A DNA stretch of 64,000 nucleotides. Source: Methylomonas albis (lineage in GTDB: Bacteria > Pseudomonadota > Gammaproteobacteria > Methylococcales > Methylomonadaceae). Positions 18,403 to 28,086 of this stretch are shown here, piece by piece. Location of the stretch: assembly GCF_014850955.1 (NCBI RefSeq), contig NZ_JACXSS010000001.1, forward strand, positions 3,286,001 to 3,350,000. The letters are read 5' to 3'. Position 1 is the stretch's first letter; every line of letters begins with the position of its first letter. The translations under genes were made by a program, and so were the position numbers. The notes under the pieces are model-generated. The model saw only the letters and a program-made list of their open reading frames with translations, was not told the DNA's origin and did not search any database.

Positions 18403-18425
18403 CATCTGTTATATTATAACATCTT
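18403..18425. promoter_or_regulatory. Zur operator upstream of the TonB receptor
   Basis: The core TGTTATATTATAACA (18407-18421) is a perfect 15-base palindrome with a single central base. Over 23 bases it matches the gammaproteobacterial Zur box (GAAATGTTATANTATAAC then ATTTC) at about 18 of 22 informative positions. It lies 31 bases before the ATG of a ZnuD-like receptor gene and includes -10-like sequence, so zinc-bound Zur would block transcription. Confidence 0.85.
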
Positions 18426-18455
18426 TGCCCATCACTCCTGACCGCTCCACTTAAC

Positions 18456-20492
18456 ATGAAAAAAACCACCGCTCTGATTTTAATGCTACCCTCCTCCGTG
18501 CTGCTTGCCGAAGAACCGCCTTTACAAGCGCTTGAAGAAATCGTCGTCACCGCACCGCTGCAAGATAAAAAATCAGACAGCCCCGTTCCGGTCACTGTAT
18601 TAAGCGACGACGAACTGAGGATGAAAACCGGCCACAGTATCGGCGATACTTTAAAAAACGAATTGGGGATCAGCAGCCAATCCTTCGGTCCCGGCGTCGG
18701 CACGCCAGTGATTCGCGGTCAAGCCGGTCCGAGGGTGCGGGTATTAAGCAACGGCATTGGCAGCAACGACGTGTCGGCGATTAGTCCCGACCACGCCACC
18801 AGCGTCGAACCGCTGCTGGCAGAGCGTATCGAAGTGTTACGCGGCCCGGCCTCTCTACTTTATGGCAGTGGTGCGATCGGTGGCGTGGTCAACGTCATCG
18901 ATAACCGGATTCCGGGACGAGCCTTCGACAAAGCGCTCAACGCCGCGCTGGAACAGCGGTTCGACTCTACCAGCGACGAAACCAGCACCACAATGAAAGT
19001 CGAGGGCAGCAAAGATCATATCGCCTACCATGTGGACGGCTTTTACCGGCACCGCAACAATCTGGACATTGGCGGCCAGGGCATCGATACCGCTAAAGTA
19101 GCGATCACCGATCCGGCGCTTGAAGTCGTCGACAACCCACGCGGTTATCTAAATAACACCGGTGCCGAAGCGATCAGCGGCTCGGCCGGATTGTCCTGGA
19201 TCGACAACTTTGGTTTCGTCGGCGCCTCTATCAATAATTTGAATAACAACTACGCCATCGCGCCGAACGGCACCGGCGACGAAACCGTGCGCATTGCTAT
19301 GCGCCAGAACAAATACGACTTTAAAAGTGAACTTAATAACCCGCTGCCGTTTGCTAAAAGCCTACGTACCCGGCTGGGTTATACCGATTATGAGCATACC
19401 GAGATCACCAACGGCTCCCCCGGTGCGTTTTTCACCAACAAAAGCTACGAAGGCCGGATTGAGTTAAACCACCATGACATCGGCCCCTTGCGCGGCGCGA
19501 TCGGTTTTCAGGCTCAGTCCAGCAATTTCAACGCCATCGAAAAACTGACCGGCGCCAGCATCGTGCCGCGTTCGGATACCTACAGCTACGGCGTATTCGG
19601 CGTCGAATCGTTTGACCTTGGCCCGCTCACCTACCAGCTCGGCACCCGCGTCGAACAAACCGACATTCACCCGGACGGTTTCACGCCCTTGAGTTACACG
19701 CCGGTTAGCGCTTCAGCCTCCGCCTTATGGAAGCTGGATAATCGTAACAGCCTGAATCTGGCGATCACCCGTTCGTCGCGCGCACCAAACGTACAGGAAT
19801 TGCTAGCAAATGGCTACCACGACGCCACTCGCAGTTTCGAACTGGGTAGCCTTAGCCTGAAGGAAGAGACCTCGTATAACCTCGACCTGGGCTACCGCTT
19901 TAAAACCGACTGGCTGCGCGCCGAATTCGACCTATTCCACAACTGGGCCAGCGACTACATCTACCAACACCGCACCGGCAACCATGTAAACGAGGACGGC
20001 AGCGACGCCTGTGCACCCGACTGTACGATTCCGGTCATGCAAAGCAACCAGCAGGACGCCATATTCAGAGGTTACGAAGCCAAGCTGATTTTCCCGATGA
20101 TGGAAAACCACATCGGCCTGTTGGAACTAACCTTGTTCAGCGACTACACCCGCGGCGAATTCAAATCCGGCGGCGACGTGCCGCGCATGCCGCCGCTACG
20201 ATACGGTCTGCAACTGGACTACAACAAAGACCGTTTATCCAGCTACCTGCGCCTGACCCGCGCCGACGACCAAACCCACGTCGGTGAATTCGAAACCTCA
20301 ACGGCCGGTTATTACCTGTTGAATGTCGGCGTCAATTACCAAGTTAAAGCGTATCAGGACGCCAAATTAATGCTCTTCGCCAAAGGCAACAACCTGCTGG
20401 ATCAAAACATCCGCAACGCGACTTCGTATTTGCGCAACTTTGCACCGGAAGCCGGGCGTGGTGTGGAAGTGGGATTTAGAGTCAGTTATTGA
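18456..20492 (+). CDS. znuD: ZnuD-type TonB-dependent outer-membrane zinc receptor
   Basis: A 678-residue TonB-dependent receptor. A signal peptide (to about residue 18) is followed by the TonB box region EEIVVTAPL (about 28-36), a plug domain with GTPVIRGQAGPRVRVLSNGI, SPDHATSVEPLLAERIEVLR and GPASLLYGSGAIGGVVNVID, and a beta-barrel ending in an aromatic C terminus (VGFRVSY). The plug pattern is that of the ZnuD/zinc-piracy subgroup. The Zur operator upstream and the zinc genes downstream support zinc uptake as its role. A cysteine pair in the barrel (DACAPDCTIP) may form a loop disulfide or bind metal. Confidence 0.88.
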   Translation: MKKTTALILMLPSSVLLAEEPPLQALEEIVVTAPLQDKKSDSPVPVTVLSDDELRMKTGHSIGDTLKNELGISSQSFGPGVGTPVIRGQAGPRVRVLSNGIGSNDVSAISPDHATSVEPLLAERIEVLRGPASLLYGSGAIGGVVNVIDNRIPGRAFDKALNAALEQRFDSTSDETSTTMKVEGSKDHIAYHVDGFYRHRNNLDIGGQGIDTAKVAITDPALEVVDNPRGYLNNTGAEAISGSAGLSWIDNFGFVGASINNLNNNYAIAPNGTGDETVRIAMRQNKYDFKSELNNPLPFAKSLRTRLGYTDYEHTEITNGSPGAFFTNKSYEGRIELNHHDIGPLRGAIGFQAQSSNFNAIEKLTGASIVPRSDTYSYGVFGVESFDLGPLTYQLGTRVEQTDIHPDGFTPLSYTPVSASASALWKLDNRNSLNLAITRSSRAPNVQELLANGYHDATRSFELGSLSLKEETSYNLDLGYRFKTDWLRAEFDLFHNWASDYIYQHRTGNHVNEDGSDACAPDCTIPVMQSNQQDAIFRGYEAKLIFPMMENHIGLLELTLFSDYTRGEFKSGGDVPRMPPLRYGLQLDYNKDRLSSYLRLTRADDQTHVGEFETSTAGYYLLNVGVNYQVKAYQDAKLMLFAKGNNLLDQNIRNATSYLRNFAPEAGRGVEVGFRVSY

Positions 20493-20506
20493 GAACCGCT
20501 TATGCA

Positions 20507-20535
20507 GGCGCTGTTTTATCGACAGCGCCTTTTTT
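20507..20535 (+). terminator. Rho-independent terminator after znuD
   Basis: An 8-bp stem GGCGCTGT (20507-20514) with ACAGCGCC (20522-20529), a 7-base loop and six T residues. It separates the receptor transcript from the downstream zinc operon, which has its own operator. Confidence 0.9.
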
Positions 20536-20543
20536 AGGCACCA

Positions 20544-20566
20544 ACAACGCTACAATATAACATTGT
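20544..20566. promoter_or_regulatory. Second, weaker Zur-like operator
   Basis: The right half TATAACATT (20556-20564) is perfect. The left half (ACAACGCTACA) is degenerate, giving about 15 of 22 matches to the Zur consensus. The likely -10 element TACAAT (20551-20556) lies within it. It ends eight bases before the ATG of the first COG0523 gene, implying a very short leader. Confidence 0.6.
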
Positions 20567-20573
20567 CACCAGC

Positions 20574-21791
20574 ATGCCTATTGAACACGCCCCATCCAGA
20601 GTACTACCTGTCACCGTGCTGTCCGGCTTTCTCGGCGCAGGTAAAACCACCTTGTTGAACCACATTCTCAACAATCGGGAAAATTTAAGAGTAGCCGTCA
20701 TCGTCAATGACATGAGCGAGGTCAACATCGATGCTGCGACGGTCAAGAATGAGATACAACTGAATCGTGGCCAGGAAAAGCTGGTCGAAATGAGCAACGG
20801 GTGCATTTGCTGCACGCTACGCGAGGACTTGCTGATCGAGATCGGCAACTTGGCCAAGGACGGCCGCTTTGATTACTTGGTGATCGAGTCCACCGGCATT
20901 GCCGAGCCTCTGCCGATTGCGGAAACCTTTACCTTCCGCGACGAACATGGCTTGAGTTTATCCGACATTGCCCGCTTGGACACGCTGGTCACGGTTGTGG
21001 GTGCGGTGAACTTCATGCGCAATTACATGGAGGCCTTAAGTTTAAAAGAAAGCGGCGAATCGCTAGGCGAAGACGACGAGCGCAATGTCGCAGATTTGCT
21101 GGTGGACCAAATCGAATTCGCCAATGTCATCCTGATTTCAAAAATAGACCTGATCGCCAGCGACGAAGTCGTGAATCTGAAAGCCGTATTACGCAGCCTT
21201 AACCCCGATGCCGACATCATCCCTATAGTCATGGGTCAGGTCGATTTACAAAAAGTCCTCGACACCCGCTTGTTTGATTTCGATAAAGCTGAACAGGCGC
21301 CGGGCTGGCTGAAAGAGTTACGTGGCGAACATACGCCGGAAACAGAGGATTACGGCATAGGCAGCTTTGTTTACAGCGTGCGCCGGCCTTTCCATCCGCA
21401 ACGTTTCTACGCCCATTTGCACGAAGGCGAATGGGAAAACGGCACCTTGCTGCGTTCTAAAGGTTTTTTCTGGCTGGCGTCACGTCCGGATCATGCCGGC
21501 AGTTGGTCACAAGCTGGCGGCGTGATGCACCATGGCTTAGCCGGACGTTGGTGGGCTTCCGTCCCGCGACAAGAATGGCCGGAAGAGTATTTGTCAGACA
21601 TTGAATCCCAATGGGCGGAACCCTACGGCGACTGTCGCCAAGAACTGGTCTTCATCGGGCAAAATGTCGATGCCGAAAAAGTCCGTCGCGAACTCGATGC
21701 CTGTCTGTTGACCGATGCGGAGCTGGCTGCCGGACCAAAAGCGTGGCACCGATATCAAGACGAGTTTCCACAATGGTTTGCCGATGGCTAG
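20574..21791 (+). CDS. COG0523 GTPase, ZigA/YciC-type zinc metallochaperone
   Basis: 405 residues, the long COG0523 form. It has a P-loop [15 protein letters not shown], the metal-binding CxCC motif in [12 protein letters not shown], switch/Walker [13 protein letters not shown], and the guanine-specificity motif ISKIDL. The C-terminal domain contains [20 protein letters not shown] and histidines ([10 protein letters not shown]). Long-form members such as ZigA deliver zinc to client enzymes during zinc shortage. It lacks a clear ribosome site, which fits the short leader. It is the first gene of the operon and overlaps the next one by eight bases. Confidence 0.9.
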
Positions 21792-22029
21792 CATCGACAG
21801 CTATCTGCATATCATCGGCATTGAATTGTTGCTTATCCTGGCCATAGTCTTGCCGTTGATTGACAGACCGGCACCTAAACGCGTGCTGTCCAAGCTCTTT
21901 TTAAGTGTCTTGGGCTTTATGCTGGCCCATTTCGCCACCCATGCCTTGCCGAACAAAGTAGCCAGCTTTATTTACAGCTCGCACCCCGCATACCACTCGA
22001 TCAAATCTACCGGACCAAAGCGCACATGA
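21784..22029 (+). CDS. Small membrane protein embedded in the zinc operon (81 aa)
   Basis: The ATG at 21784 overlaps the COG0523 stop and the TGA overlaps the ATG of the ZIP gene (ATGA), so translation is tightly coupled on both sides. The product has two hydrophobic helices (about residues 9-26 and 37-52) joined by a basic loop [11 protein letters not shown], then a tail with His, Ser and Tyr (YSSHPAYHS). The family is unknown to me. The position between a zinc chaperone and a zinc transporter suggests an accessory role in zinc uptake. Confidence 0.65.
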
Positions 22030-22811
22030 CTATCGCACTCAGCACAACTGCCGGCGCCATTGCCGCCTGTCTTGCGGTCAGCTTATGTTCGCTGTCCAGC
22101 ATCTTTGCCCTATACCTAAAACCAGACACCTTGAAACGGATAGTCCCGTATTTGGTAGCACTGGCCGTGGGGGTATTGTTGGGCGATGCCTTCATTCATT
22201 TAATTCCCGATGCGGTCAGCCGCCACGGCGCAGTCAGTGAAGTGTGTTTAACGGTATTAGTCGGTGTATTCGGTTTCTTTGTGCTGGAAAAACTGGTGCG
22301 TTGGCGCCACGACCATAACGTCGATACCACCCCTGATCAGAACGACATTCTGCCGCTGGCTAAAATGAACTTGATCGGCGACGCCATGCACAACTTCGTT
22401 GACGGCATTTTGATCGCCGGCAGTTTTCTGGCGGACCCGGCATTGGGCTTGACCACCACCTTGGCCATCATCGCTCATGAGATACCGCAGGAACTTGGCG
22501 ATGTTGGCGCATTGCTGCGCGGCGGCTATTCACCCAGACAAGCGGTGCTCTACAACTTTTATTGCTCGCTGACCGTGCTACCGGGCGCGCTATTTACCTT
22601 AGTGCTCAGTCAGTTGGCGGAGTCGTCCTTAACCTTATTGTTGCCGATTGCCGCCGGTGGCTTCATCTATATCGCCGCCTCCGATCTAATTCCTGTGTTA
22701 CACGAACGCTGCAGCTTCCCTAGCCTTAGCGGCCAAACCGCCGCGTTCGGCATAGGCATCGGCTTTATGCAATTCATTGTATTTTTCGAACAGGCCTTAT
22801 TGGCTGTTTAA
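22026..22811 (+). CDS. ZIP-family metal transporter
   Basis: 261 residues with eight predicted membrane helices and the ZIP signature pair: HNFVDGILIAGSF in helix IV and HEIPQELGDVGALLRGG in helix V, which form the binuclear metal site. ZIP proteins import zinc (or other divalent metals) into the cytoplasm. The His-rich cytoplasmic loop of other ZIPs is reduced to WRHDHNVDTT. Its place in a Zur-linked operon makes zinc the probable substrate. Confidence 0.92.
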   Translation: MTIALSTTAGAIAACLAVSLCSLSSIFALYLKPDTLKRIVPYLVALAVGVLLGDAFIHLIPDAVSRHGAVSEVCLTVLVGVFGFFVLEKLVRWRHDHNVDTTPDQNDILPLAKMNLIGDAMHNFVDGILIAGSFLADPALGLTTTLAIIAHEIPQELGDVGALLRGGYSPRQAVLYNFYCSLTVLPGALFTLVLSQLAESSLTLLLPIAAGGFIYIAASDLIPVLHERCSFPSLSGQTAAFGIGIGFMQFIVFFEQALLAV

Positions 22812-22821
22812 GGAGTTTTTT

Positions 22822-23538
22822 GTGTTTGCTCGTACCCCATTTCGCCAAGCGACGATCGCGCCACTGAATTTCGTTGGCACATTCCAAGCGGTGTCATATA
22901 CGCCGGCAAGCAAAACCGTCATCTCGACGGAGTTTGCCGATTTATCCCGCATCTACGAAGACGGTGTGAATCTTTGCCTGGTACAACGGCCGCTCCCGCA
23001 GGCGATTGAAAACTTTGTCAACAACGCCTTAAAAGCATTCGGCAACCTGGAACTCAGCCAAGCGATCAATCCCCTGCATTTCAATTTTACCGAACTATGG
23101 CCGCAAGCCAGCCGCTGCGCGGGATACGGGGAATGGTTAGCAGATATCGAACTATTGACCTCGGCGTTCTGCGAGCTATTCGAACTCAAGCAAGCCGGCT
23201 TGCGCCTGCGAACCTTGAAAACCGCCATGTGTCCGCGCTTTCATGTGGATAGAGTGCCTGCCCGCATGATCTGCAGCTACGGTGGCATCGGTACCGAGTG
23301 GCTGCCGGAATATGCGCTGAACAGACGAAAGCTCGGCATGGGTAGTTGCGGCCAGGATGATGCGCAGTCCGGCTTGATCGTCGATCAAACCGCCATTCGG
23401 CGGATGCCAGCTTATGCCGTAGGCTTGATGAAAGGCGAAGCCTGGGAAGGCAACGAAGGCCATGGATTCGTGCATCGCTCACCTATCCCGACCGCCGTCC
23501 AACCACGACGCTTGGTGCTAACGCTGGATATGCTGTGA
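22822..23538 (+). CDS. DUF1826 family protein (zinc-operon member)
   Basis: Start set at GTG 22822 because an ideal ribosome site (AGGAG, 22811-22815) lies seven bases upstream; the longer frame into the ZIP gene is unlikely. The 238-residue protein shows the DUF1826 patterns CPRFHVDRVPARMICSYGG, GIGTEWLPE and the C-terminal VHRSPIPTAVQPRRLVLTLD. The HxD and the later conserved His resemble a non-haem iron/2-oxoglutarate (cupin) site. DUF1826 genes are often beside COG0523 genes. No enzymatic role is established. Confidence 0.85.
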   Translation: MFARTPFRQATIAPLNFVGTFQAVSYTPASKTVISTEFADLSRIYEDGVNLCLVQRPLPQAIENFVNNALKAFGNLELSQAINPLHFNFTELWPQASRCAGYGEWLADIELLTSAFCELFELKQAGLRLRTLKTAMCPRFHVDRVPARMICSYGGIGTEWLPEYALNRRKLGMGSCGQDDAQSGLIVDQTAIRRMPAYAVGLMKGEAWEGNEGHGFVHRSPIPTAVQPRRLVLTLDML

Positions 23539-23548
23539 GGACAAGATT

Positions 23549-25188
23549 TTGCTGATCAAATTAGCAAACGGACACATTTACGATCCCACCCAAAACATGC
23601 ACGGCCAACTGGGTGACCTCTATATCCGGGATGGACTAATTAGCAGCGACCCAGGCCCGGATGCGAAATTTGACACCGTGTATGACCTGGGAGGCCAGAT
23701 TGTCATGGCCGGCGCCGTGGACATTCATAGCCATATTGCCGGCGGTAATCTGAATACCGCCCGCCTGTTGTTACCGGAGCAGCATAGGAACCATATGGCC
23801 CGTCGACTGAATCACAGGTTCAGCACGGCAAAATGGTCCACTACCGACATCGGCTATCGCTACGCGCGCATGGGTTATACCACCGTGGTCGAGCCGGCCA
23901 TGTTGCCCGTGAATGCGCTGGACGTACATCTGCAACTGGCCGATATTCCCATTCTGGATACCGCCGCACTTGCGATATTGGGTAACGACGATTTTCTACT
24001 GCGATTGCTGCGCAGTAAAGCCGGCCAAAACCAAATCAACGATTACGTCGCCTGGACGCTGAATGCCACCCGCGCCCTGGGGCTAAAAGTCATTAACGCC
24101 GGTGGAGCCAACGCCTTTAAAAGCAACGTGCGCCAATTCGACTTGGACGACATCGTCCCCGACTACGGTGTTAGCTCCAGGCAAATTCTGCAAACCCTGC
24201 AAACAGCCGTTTGCCAACTGGGCGTCCCCCATCCGCTGCACGTACATTGCAATAACCTGGGCATGGCAGGCAATGTCGATACCATCGTCGCCACCATGGC
24301 AGCCGCACAAGGTTTGCCTATGCATCTGGCCCACGTGCAGTTTTACGCCTACGGCAAGGACGGAGCCAAGGGCTTTTCCTCGGCAGCCGCACAACTATTG
24401 GAAGCCTTCAACCGCCATCCGAATATCACCATGGATGTCGGCCAGGTCATGTTCGGCCAAACAGTCACCATTTCCGGCGATGTGATTGCGCAGTACAGCC
24501 GCCACGGCGACGCCAGCCCTACAAAATGGGTGATGTGGGATGCCGAATGCGAGGGCTCGGGCGGCGTGGTGCCTTATCGCTACCGTGAGGCCAGCTTTGT
24601 CAACACCCTGCAATGGGCGATTGGTTTAGAATTATTTTTGCTAGCCGATGCACCGGAGCGCCTGTTTTTCACTACCGATCATCCCAACGGCGCCCCCTTC
24701 ACCGCCTATCCTGAATTAATGCGTTTGTTGATGAACGCCGATTACCGCCAAGCCTGCATGGCGCGCTTAAACCAAGAAGCCTTGGCACTAAGCTTATTGC
24801 CAAACCTAAAGCGAGAATTTAGCTTGAGCGACATCGCCACGATGACCAGGAGTGCTGCCGCGAATTTGCTGGGTTTGCATGATCGCGGCCATTTGGCGCC
24901 GGGGGCGATAGCGGACATTGCCGTCTACTGCCCCCGGGCCGTAGGAACGAAGACAGCATGTTCACCGATGCAGCACTCGTTTTCAAAAACGGCGAGCTGG
25001 TAGTGCGGGATGGAATCGTCGTATCCCGGCCAAGCGGCTGCACCCAAACCCTGCAACCCGATTACGACCCCAGCATTATGCCTACGGTGCAACACCATTT
25101 CGACCGATTCTACAGCCTGAGACTTAGCAACTTCGCGGTTAATGACGACGATTTCGCTGAACCCAGCCGGTTTAGGTTCCACGGTTGA
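23549..25188 (+). CDS. FhcA/FwdA-like amidohydrolase (formyltransferase/hydrolase complex subunit A), frameshifted near its 3' end
   Basis: FhcA, like FwdA, hydrolyses formyl-methanofuran-type intermediates in tetrahydromethanopterin-linked C1 metabolism. The binuclear metal site is complete: H60 and H62 (VDIHSHIAGG), K180 (ALGLKVINAGG, the lysine carboxylated in FwdA), H231/H233 (PLHVHCNNLG), H262 (HLAHVQFYAYG) and D377 (FFTTDHPNG). As written the frame ends at 25003 after 484 residues. The family C terminus (MFTDAALVFKNGELVVRDG through FRFHG) continues in another frame to 25188. One extra C in the run at 24931-24935 would restore a 547-residue protein, the normal length. It follows the DUF1826 gene by ten bases inside the zinc operon, far from usual fhcBDC partners. 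Confidence 0.85.
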
Positions 25189-25270
25189 ATCTCTCGCATA
25201 CGATGACCTTCGTTAGCGCCTTTACATTGCCGGCAAAACCCTGCCCCCACGTGATTGTTAAATTAAACCC

Positions 25271-26059
25271 ATGAGCACCATTGAAGATATTCAAGGCCGG
25301 CCGGATATGCGCCGCATAGCGATCGACAAAGTCGGCATCAAAGACATTCGGCACCCGGTTAGAGTCAAAGATAAAAGCTGCGGTGAACAGCGAACCGTCG
25401 CGCATTTTGATATGTACGTCAACCTGCCTCACGACTTCAAAGGCACGCATATGTCGCGCTTCGTGGAAATTTTGAATAATCACGACCGGGAGATCAGCAT
25501 CGCCTCGTTCCCGGCCATGTTACAAGAAATGCTGACCAGGCTGGAAGCCGAATCCGGTTATATCGAGATGCGTTTTCCGTACTTCGTGGATAAAGCCGCT
25601 CCGGTTAGCGGCGTGCGCAGCCTAATGGATTATCAAGTCAGCTTTATCGGCGAAATCGATCACACCGGCTGTCGTATCAAAGTCAAAGTGGTGGTACCTG
25701 TGACCAGTCTATGCCCCTGCTCCAAAGAAATCTCCGAGCGCGGCGCGCATAACCAGCGTTCACACGTCAGCGTTACAGTAGAAGCAAATGCGTTCATCTG
25801 GCTGGAAGAGCTGATCACGCTAGTGGAAGCCGAAGCCTCGTCACAAATCTACGGGCTGTTAAAGCGCCCCGACGAAAAATACGTCACCGAATATGCCTAC
25901 GACCATCCCAAGTTCGTCGAAGACATGGTGCGCGACGTAGCCGCCCGATTAAACGCGGAACCTCGGATATTAAGCTACAGCGTCGAGTCGGAAAACTTCG
26001 AGTCTATCCACAACCACTCAGCCTATGCCCTGATACAACGACTTAGAACCCAGCCCTGA
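25271..26059 (+). CDS. folE2: GTP cyclohydrolase IB (FolE2)
   Basis: Makes 7,8-dihydroneopterin triphosphate from GTP, the first step to folate and to methanopterin-type cofactors. The 262 residues fit the type IB family, which does not require zinc and can use other divalent metals. Signatures: the N-terminal [20 protein letters not shown], the catalytic cysteine region [20 protein letters not shown], and VRDVAARLN. FolE2 replaces zinc-dependent FolE under zinc limitation in many bacteria, in line with its place here. Confidence 0.95.
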
Positions 26060-26070
26060 AAGAGACATTT

Positions 26071-27072
26071 ATGAACCCAATTACCCAACGCAATTATCCA
26101 GTGCCGGTTACCATCCTCACCGGATTTCTCGGTGCAGGCAAAACCACCTTGCTAAACCGCATTCTCACCGAACACCACGGTAAGCGTATTGCGGTGATCG
26201 AAAACGAATTCGGTGAAGCCGGCATCGACAATGAACTGCTGCTGCAAGCCGACGAGCAAATCGTCGAAATGAACAACGGCTGCATCTGCTGCACGGTGCG
26301 CGGCGATCTGGTGCGCATCCTCGGCGAATTGGCCGAGCGGCGGGAAAGCGGCGATATTCATTTCGAGCGGGTGATCATCGAAACCACCGGTTTGGCCGAT
26401 CCGGCTCCGGTGGCGCAGACGTTTTTTGTCGATCAGGCTATTGCGAAAAATTACCGGCTGGATGCAATCATTACCGTGGTTGACGCGGCTCATGCCCACC
26501 AGCAACTCGAAGAACACCATGAGGCCCAGGAACAAGTCGGTTTCGCCGACCGGATTTTGATCTCCAAATCCGACTTGGTGGCAGCGGAAGTGCTGGCTGA
26601 TTTGGAAAGCCGCTTGCGCTCGATGAACCCCAGAGCGCCCATCAAACCCGTGCATTTTGGCCAAACCGAGCTGCGGGATATACTGGACATCGGTGGCTTT
26701 AATCTCGAAGATATTCTGAAAATCGAGCCGGATTTTCTGGAGGATGTCAGCCACGAACACGACGACGCCATCAGCTCCCTGGTGTATCGCTCGCCACGGC
26801 CGTTCGAGATGTCGCGCCTGCTGCTTTTTCTGGACATTATGGTAGGTGGGTTCGGCAAGGACTTATTACGCTACAAAGGCATCCTTAATATTGCCGGTAA
26901 CGATAATAAAATCCTGTTTCAGGGGGTACATATGATCATGGGCGACAGCTTGGGTTTGCCGTGGCCGGCGGGTGAACCTCGCCAGTCGCAACTGGTGTTT
27001 ATTGGCCGTAACCTGCCCAAACAGCAGATATTGACAAGCTTAGAGGCTTGCCATGTCGATGCGGTAGCTTGA
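26071..27072 (+). CDS. COG0523/CobW-like GTPase (second copy)
   Basis: 333 residues, short COG0523 form. Motifs: [15 protein letters not shown] (P-loop), EFGEAGIDNEL (switch I), NGCICCTVRGDL (metal CxCC), IETTGLADPAPVAQTF and ISKSDL (guanine recognition). The C-terminal domain starts around SSLVYRSPRPFEMSRLL. It is probably a metal chaperone for a client enzyme encoded nearby. It starts 11 bases after folE2. Confidence 0.92.
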   Translation: MNPITQRNYPVPVTILTGFLGAGKTTLLNRILTEHHGKRIAVIENEFGEAGIDNELLLQADEQIVEMNNGCICCTVRGDLVRILGELAERRESGDIHFERVIIETTGLADPAPVAQTFFVDQAIAKNYRLDAIITVVDAAHAHQQLEEHHEAQEQVGFADRILISKSDLVAAEVLADLESRLRSMNPRAPIKPVHFGQTELRDILDIGGFNLEDILKIEPDFLEDVSHEHDDAISSLVYRSPRPFEMSRLLLFLDIMVGGFGKDLLRYKGILNIAGNDNKILFQGVHMIMGDSLGLPWPAGEPRQSQLVFIGRNLPKQQILTSLEACHVDAVA

Positions 27073-27108
27073 TGTGGCATCTTAAATGAATGCATCTTTG
27101 ATTGACGA

Positions 27109-28086
27109 ATGAATCCAAGCAAAATCCCCGTCATCGTCCTAACCGGTTTTCTGGGTAGCGGCAAAACCACTTTGTTGAATCGATTATTGGCCGATGGCGT
27201 CAAAACCGCCGTTGTCATCAACGAGTTTGGCAATACGCCGGTCGATCAGGATTTGTTGTCCGATCAAAACATCCCGATGACGGTGTTGTCCGGCGGTTGC
27301 TTGTGCTGTCAGATCAAAGGTGCGCTGGCGCCGACCTTGAAGAACTTGTGGATGGCCTGGAACAGTGCGGCAATCAAGCCTTTCGACCGCATCATCATCG
27401 AGACCAGCGGCGTAGCCAGTCCGGAACCGATTTTGGACACGCTGCTGCGCGAACGTTGGCTGGCCAGCCGCTATCATTTGGCCGCTGTCATTACCACCTT
27501 GGCGATTCCTTCGGCTTTGCAGCAATTGGATGATTTCGCCGAAGCGCGCGCCCAGGTGGTGTGGGCCGATACCTTGTTACTCACCCATGCCGATCTGGCC
27601 GCTGCCGATCAAGATGCGGCGCTGAACAAGCGTCTGCAAACCCTGGCGCCGGCCACATCCAGGCATATGATGACAGATGGTGAATGCCAATCAGGTGATC
27701 GAATAACAAACATAGGCCCAGCGTTGCGCCGTTTGCCTACCGGCAATCCACTACCCGCGCATAACTTTGCCAGCATCTCGCTGCATTTGGATCAGGCTTT
27801 ACCCTGGCTGCAGTTAGAAGCAATCCTGCAAGAATTATTAGCTCGCCATCCGCTTGATTTATTGCGCATAAAAGGCGTGGTTTATCTGCCTGAGCAAGCA
27901 GAAGCTCTGGCGGTCCAGGCCGCCGCCAATCGGCTTTATCCACCCACCCCACTAACCATACGAAGCAGCGACGATAGGCGCGGCAGGCTGGTATTCATTA
28001 CCAGCGGCGACAGTAAAACACTTGCAGAGGAATTGACCGGAATATTTGCTGGCTTTATTCCGCCAAACGCTATCCGACAGCATTAA
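27109..28086 (+). CDS. COG0523/CobW-like GTPase (third copy)
   Basis: 325 residues and clearly diverged from the other two copies. P-loop GFLGSGKTTLLNRLL, metal motif GGCLCCQIKGAL, Walker B-like ETSGVASPEPILDTLL. The guanine-specificity motif is altered to THADLA in place of SKxD, so nucleotide preference may differ. It lies 36 bases after the second copy and closes the zinc operon. Confidence 0.9.
   Translation: MNPSKIPVIVLTGFLGSGKTTLLNRLLADGVKTAVVINEFGNTPVDQDLLSDQNIPMTVLSGGCLCCQIKGALAPTLKNLWMAWNSAAIKPFDRIIIETSGVASPEPILDTLLRERWLASRYHLAAVITTLAIPSALQQLDDFAEARAQVVWADTLLLTHADLAAADQDAALNKRLQTLAPATSRHMMTDGECQSGDRITNIGPALRRLPTGNPLPAHNFASISLHLDQALPWLQLEAILQELLARHPLDLLRIKGVVYLPEQAEALAVQAAANRLYPPTPLTIRSSDDRRGRLVFITSGDSKTLAEELTGIFAGFIPPNAIRQH

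Follow-up and report, generated by a model that had tools for sequence, protein, structure and literature searches.

FhcA, which by inference from FwdA we take to be a zinc enzyme, presumably forms the hydrolase subunit of the formyltransferase/hydrolase (Fhc) complex. Here, we describe fhcA2, a second gene for this subunit that lies at 23549..25003 on the plus strand of a 64,000-nucleotide stretch of the Methylomonas albis genome (the window; C1:3286001-3350000 of a two-contig genome of 5.4 Mb), amid genes typical of zinc starvation. The Fhc complex converts formyl-tetrahydromethanopterin (formyl-H4MPT) to formate with methylofuran as carrier (PMC8141765). In Methanothermobacter, the homologous formylmethanofuran dehydrogenase subunit FwdA holds a binuclear Zn2+ center (PMC13397495) and is common to the tungsten and molybdenum enzymes (PMC3087415), which sets a precedent for mixing this subunit with different partners. 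Whereas FwdA is one subunit with two partner sets, two types of FhcA would here serve a single one. In contrast to the FhcA known from the Fhc complex of Methylorubrum extorquens (PDB 6s6y), FhcA2 has its gene in a zinc-starvation operon that is separate from fhcB, fhcC and fhcD, and it coexists with a canonical FhcA1 wherever this was checked, with the exception of one metagenome-assembled genome (MAG).

Zinc-sparing paralogues of ribosomal proteins and of several enzymes are known (PMC6103462, PMC8000910). Nine families of Zur-linked zinc-enzyme paralogues are named in the accessible part of Haas et al. (2009, PMC2770081), namely HisI, PyrC, Cam, HemB, CysRS, ThrRS, an amidase, QueD and DksA. 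FhcA2 resembles them in being the paralogue of a housekeeping zinc enzyme located beside COG0523 and FolE2 genes with Zur boxes. As in the paralogues of HisI, CysRS and ThrRS, its zinc-site residues are retained. All its proposed ligands are kept, whereas those for zinc are not conserved in the Zur-linked paralogue of PyrC (PMC2770081), and it differs from all of these families in belonging to core one-carbon catabolism as a subunit of a multi-protein complex. The nine families named there do not include FhcA, the word “formyl” is absent from that article and from two reviews on Zur (PMC6103462, PMC8000910), and no earlier report of FhcA as a Zur-linked paralogue was found in the open-licence literature. 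The Zur-linked paralogue of a zinc enzyme is a known kind, of which FhcA appears to be a new example.

FhcA2 genes recur beside zinc-starvation genes and Zur boxes

With each species represented by one genome, a scan identified 121 relatives, the best 80 of which were kept and classified into 58 loci of FhcA2 type (L024-L079, L081, L086) and 22 with other FhcA; among these 80, the closest FhcA2 relatives of the window genome are Methylomonas. At least one zinc-starvation gene lies nearby in 54 of the 58 FhcA2 loci, with COG0523 genes in 52, DUF1826 in 48, ZIP in 34, ZnuD-like receptors in 22 and folE2 in 21, and fhcB, fhcC or fhcD in none. The 22 other FhcA loci contain a remote folE2 match in two cases and no other zinc gene. 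The linkage of fhcA to COG0523 genes, on which the first-pass annotation had made its proposal depend, is thus found well beyond the window. Gene order differs between lineages: ZIP-DUF1826-fhcA2-folE2 in Methylomonas, DUF1826-COG0523-fhcA2-COG0523 in Methylobacter, COG0523-fhcA2 in Methylophaga and COG0523-fhcA2-zigA-DUF1826 in a Methylophilaceae MAG, and in one Filomicrobium locus COG0523 and ZnuA genes are located 1-7 kb from fhcA2. The four loci lacking zinc genes are L041, L044 and L086, which form one clade, and L077 of a distant lineage. In the latter, a 24-bp Zur-type palindrome is followed by hisI (PF01502) and then fhcA2, HisI being one of the nine Zur-linked families (PMC2770081).

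Two Zur-like sites had been claimed for the window. Site 1, the palindrome TGTTATATTATAACA at 18407..18421, 34 bp upstream of znuD, is the sole perfect match to the Zur pattern in the entire genome; the published consensus reads GAAATGTTATANTATAACATTTC (PMC2895646, PMC3247240). With up to three mismatches allowed, the pattern matches 80 times genome-wide, compared with at least 200 matches for a reversed control pattern. Site 2, located at 20548..20562 before zigA, carries three mismatches and is not significant by itself (three matches in the window against 1.58 expected, with equally high counts in 20 of 100 shuffles). Four relatives (L027, L032, L034, L035) harbor a box with zero to two mismatches at this position. 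Only the first of the two claimed sites therefore holds on its own.

Across the 58 FhcA2 loci (959 kb), 55 box matches with at most two mismatches were counted, overlapping double sites being scored separately, whereas ten first-order Markov resamplings yielded a mean of 3.4 and a maximum of 6. At least one box is present in 36 of these loci. At the same threshold, boxes are absent from 83 other FhcA loci (789 kb, some overlapping) and from 20 FhcA1 loci (fhcB-A-D-C) of the order. Another region of the window genome encodes a Zur-like protein (NF008646, 140.4 bits, below the cut-off of 167).

FhcA2 coexists with a canonical FhcA and seldom has Fhc partners of its own

A complete canonical fhcB-A-D-C cluster is located elsewhere in the window genome (approximately C1:498.5-503.3 kb), and its FhcA1 (554 amino acids, aa) shares 52% identity with FhcA2 over 464 residues. 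A search for a second fhcA in an fhc cluster, as had been advised, was hence successful, and fhcA2 is excluded as the sole genomic copy. In 20 FhcA1 loci fetched from FhcA2-carrying genomes, fhcB, fhcC and fhcD were always present and zinc genes always absent. At 72% identity or more, FhcA2 itself was detected in no fewer than 48 of the 201 genomes examined from the order, among them at least 18 of 28 from the genus of the window, window genome included. All but one of the 48 genomes contain two or more FhcA matches; the second match was examined in 20 of them and is in each case FhcA1 in fhcB-A-D-C.

Partner subunits were counted in the same 48 genomes. A single fhcD is present in 46, two in one and none in one, a genome that is 78% complete; fhcB exceeds the family cut-off in 45, and two strong fhcB genes occur only in G123. 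Among 20 genomes reached through their loci, 19 contain one fhcD and one contains two; 19 of these genomes are FhcA2 carriers, all with fhcD, and the remaining one (G209) has canonical FhcA only. FhcA2 seldom has its own Fhc partners. Since fhcD and fhcB are mostly single in FhcA2 genomes, FhcA2 most likely swaps into a common Fhc complex, as judged from these gene counts.

The exception among the genomes checked is the Methylomonas MAG BC.006 (95% complete; G167 and G214 are the same genome by coordinates), in which fhcB and fhcD-fhcC are located on separate contigs. The 12 kb fetched around each of them contain no fhcA1, and the genome has no FhcA match other than FhcA2. Provided that the bin is correct, FhcA2 seems to serve as the only FhcA of this organism. 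In G222, which may be a second genome with FhcA2 only, the match to fhcB sits at the end of a contig. Three FhcA occur in the genome of L077 (G206), where two fhcB/fhcA/fhcD sets lie a few kb apart (C1:381-392 kb) and a third FhcA is the fhcA2 linked to the Zur box.

The putative metal site is complete and the window copy is frame-broken

The window copy starts with TTG and its open reading frame (ORF) of 484 aa scores 599.1 bits against TIGR03121, compared with 653.9 bits for the full-length FhcA2 of L025, both above the curated cut-off of 392.75. The complete binuclear metal site claimed earlier is present: H60, H62, K180, H231, H233, H262 and D377, a putative site in which the metal-binding role of each clustered histidine is assigned by homology, are kept in 100% of 58 FhcA2 rows (57 loci and the window; the short L060 was left out and 17 remoter rows were not counted), as they are in 45 FhcA1 rows and 15 alphaproteobacterial-type rows. 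A zinc-free FhcA2 is therefore not indicated, and the kept ligands are compatible with a different metal that FhcA2 may use in vivo. Canonical FhcA has 106 invariant positions, 95 of which are conserved in FhcA2. Purifying selection acts on the gene, with a ratio of nonsynonymous to synonymous substitution rates (dN/dS) of 0.06-0.09.

Overlooked in the first-pass annotation, a frame break at approximately 24930-24960 leaves the last ~20 codons of the window ORF off-frame relative to its relatives. The linker at this point is 46 bases shorter than in L025, which accounts for the frame shift. A detached C-terminal part of 76 codons follows in another frame (24958..25188, plus strand); it shares 66-72% identity with the C-termini of three relatives, separately matches residues 468-542 of FhcA1, and displays a dN/dS of ~0.13-0.16 in the two relatives with finite dS. 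All proposed catalytic residues are located upstream of the break. Measured against a full length of ~540-585 aa, the window copy is too short, whereas the family is not: 56 of the 58 FhcA2 loci encode proteins that measure 543-585 aa when counted from the aligned start, and the L055 sequence is cut off by the end of its contig. The break may be a sequencing error or a real mutation, and in the latter case FhcA2 of the window strain may be truncated or defective. Intact copies are found in Methylomonas sp. LW13 (L026) and Methylotuvimicrobium buryatense (L072). An early stop at 314 aa was also observed in L060, a Methylobacter-like MAG.

FhcA2 groups with an alphaproteobacterial type of FhcA

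In a tree of 65 rows, FhcA2 joins a canonical group including M. extorquens and a Xanthobacteraceae with 100/100 support, apart from FhcA1; the label “alphaproteobacterial” for this group is taken from these rows only. The type nearest to FhcA2 is the FhcA found in 15 canonical fhc clusters, among them that of M. extorquens. This grouping marks FhcA2 as a distinct type and not as a recent duplicate of FhcA1, contrary to the notion of a duplicated resident FhcA. As to whether FhcA homologues near COG0523 genes form a clade, they group together except for L079, a zinc-linked Methylophilaceae sequence on a long branch that falls outside both the FhcA2 and the alphaproteobacterial groups (98/89). 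The approximately unbiased test does not reject one common clade of the zinc-linked sequences (p-AU 0.112), so that strict monophyly is neither supported nor rejected. Taken at face value, the position of L079 implies that alphaproteobacterial FhcA would descend from zinc-linked forms.

A separate case concerns L188 (G537:C1:33165-34793), where an FhcA1-type FhcA and an alphaproteobacterial-type FhcD are encoded in one fhc cluster. In the FhcD tree, the L188 protein, again on a long branch, is located among FhcD of the alphaproteobacterial group (97/89). FhcA types may thus have been exchanged inside fhc clusters, which is expected if the subunit is interchangeable.

FhcA2 as a candidate zinc-starvation version of FhcA

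We consider it probable that the product of fhcA2 is a version of FhcA for zinc starvation, which would replace FhcA1 on the FhcB/C/D core under Zur control. With ample zinc, Zur would keep the operon silent, and the complex would contain the FhcA1 encoded in fhcB-A-D-C. Upon a drop in zinc, Zur would leave its box, and FhcA2 would be produced along with ZnuD and ZIP for import, COG0523 chaperones and FolE2. Replacement of FhcA1 by FhcA2 on the common core would then maintain the formaldehyde-to-formate flux at low zinc, with metal supplied to FhcA2 by COG0523 loading, by tighter zinc binding or in the form of another metal. The sequences themselves show the gene, its predicted fold and ligand residues, the linkage, the Zur boxes, a second fhcA and mostly single fhcB and fhcD genes; from these we infer zinc control, the subunit swap, the activity of FhcA2 and its metal acquisition. 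The zinc-limitation isoform proposed in the first-pass annotation gains from the second fhcA, the recurrent zinc linkage and the Zur boxes, and loses from the frame break and the kept ligands; because the window copy is broken, the proposal carries more weight for the family at large than it does for the window strain.

Several observations weigh against this reading. No box with at most two mismatches is present in 22 of the 58 FhcA2 loci, and among the 56 zigA/znuD starts for which 100 bp or more of upstream sequence is available, only 33 have a box no more than 300 bp away. The remaining 23 starts include all five Methylophaga zigA starts tested, where another motif or regulator may be in use. 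L041, L044 and L086 lack Zur boxes in addition to zinc genes, the lone genome without FhcA1 is a MAG, and broken copies occur both in the window and in L060. Moreover, nothing in the ligands marks a zinc-free enzyme, and at 11 of the 106 positions that do not vary in canonical FhcA, FhcA2 is changed or less constrained.

Among the alternatives, FhcA2 might be zinc-controlled and act outside the Fhc complex as a stand-alone amidohydrolase on another formylated or cyclic amide, perhaps in folate, pterin or pyrimidine supply beside FolE2. We regard this as unlikely, given the 95 conserved canonical positions, the affinity to FhcA of canonical fhc clusters, the presence of fhcD in 47 of 48 FhcA2 carriers and in all 19 carriers reached through loci, and the one MAG that appears to depend on FhcA2 alone. 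It is considerably less credible that FhcA2 is a hitchhiker, an alphaproteobacterial-type fhcA caught by a mobile zinc operon and retained by linkage. The patchy occurrence among the genomes of the order (48 or more of 201) and of the genus (18 of 28) and the two broken copies would fit such a history, but the zinc context persists despite differing gene orders, a separate hisI-fhcA2 pair follows a Zur-type palindrome in L077, and the gene is under purifying selection. ZIP and COG0523 proteins can handle metals other than zinc, and three FhcA2 loci have neither zinc genes nor boxes; an isoform for non-zinc stress (e.g., another metal) that shares the operon through a wider metal-starvation response is nonetheless very improbable, as the boxes fit the published Zur consensus and a Zur-like protein is encoded.

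The paralogue described here is part of the central pathway from which methane and methanol oxidizers gain energy. If FhcA2 is indeed a zinc-starvation subunit, the influence of zinc supply would extend into core methane metabolism. In nature, a shortage of zinc could then restrict both the detoxification of formaldehyde and the oxidation of methane, and FhcA would become a candidate client of COG0523 metallochaperones. A bolder version, which we put forward tentatively and hold to be rather unlikely in full, is that FhcA2 keeps the H4MPT/methylofuran pathway of these organisms running when zinc is almost gone, by means of a COG0523-loaded swapped subunit, perhaps with a non-zinc metal, and that Methylorubrum-type FhcA may descend from a zinc-starvation lineage.

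Gene content of the window locus and of a zinc-gene-free sub-lineage

The locus at 18456-28086 comprises eight family-assigned genes, all on the plus strand, and one small ORF without family. Downstream of the perfect Zur palindrome, the genes are arranged in the order znuD–zigA–ZIP–DUF1826–fhcA2–folE2–COG0523–COG0523; ORFs and family matches bear out the gene content and order originally described. The TonB-dependent receptor gene at 18456..20492 has ZnuD as its best NCBIfam match (NF038289), which agrees with the earlier naming, at a score of 405.8 bits that stays below the cut-off of 950. It is followed by zigA, encoding a COG0523 zinc metallochaperone GTPase (20574..21791; NF038288, 672.6 bits, cut-off 600), a ZIP-family metal transporter gene (22026..22811; PF02535, 143.3 bits) and a DUF1826 gene of uncertain start (22777..23538; PF08856, 214.9 bits). 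Downstream of fhcA2 are folE2, encoding GTP cyclohydrolase IB (25271..26059; NF010200, 302.9 bits, cut-off 215), and the second (26071..27072; PF02492, 200.6 bits) and third (27109..28086; PF02492, 133.5 bits) COG0523 GTPase genes.

The three related loci devoid of zinc genes (L041:1518-12704, L044:9004-12628, L086:325-8749) constitute an FhcA2 sub-lineage with surroundings of its own. Neighbors in L041 include DUF6671, GcpE, IlvD and a class-III aminotransferase; DUF6671 was identified by Pfam in L041 and L044, other neighbors in the sub-lineage were read as CysD/CysN, and IspG- and BioA-like genes are located near fhcA2 in L041 (by Pfam) and L086 (by eye). The genome of L041 additionally harbors a zinc-linked FhcA2 (L048). 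This sub-lineage may serve a different stress.

Finally, the small ORF at 21715..22029 (plus strand, start uncertain, no family match) lies between zigA, which it overlaps, and the ZIP gene, and similar ORFs with 35-75% identity were found in the loci of 12 of the 80 relatives.
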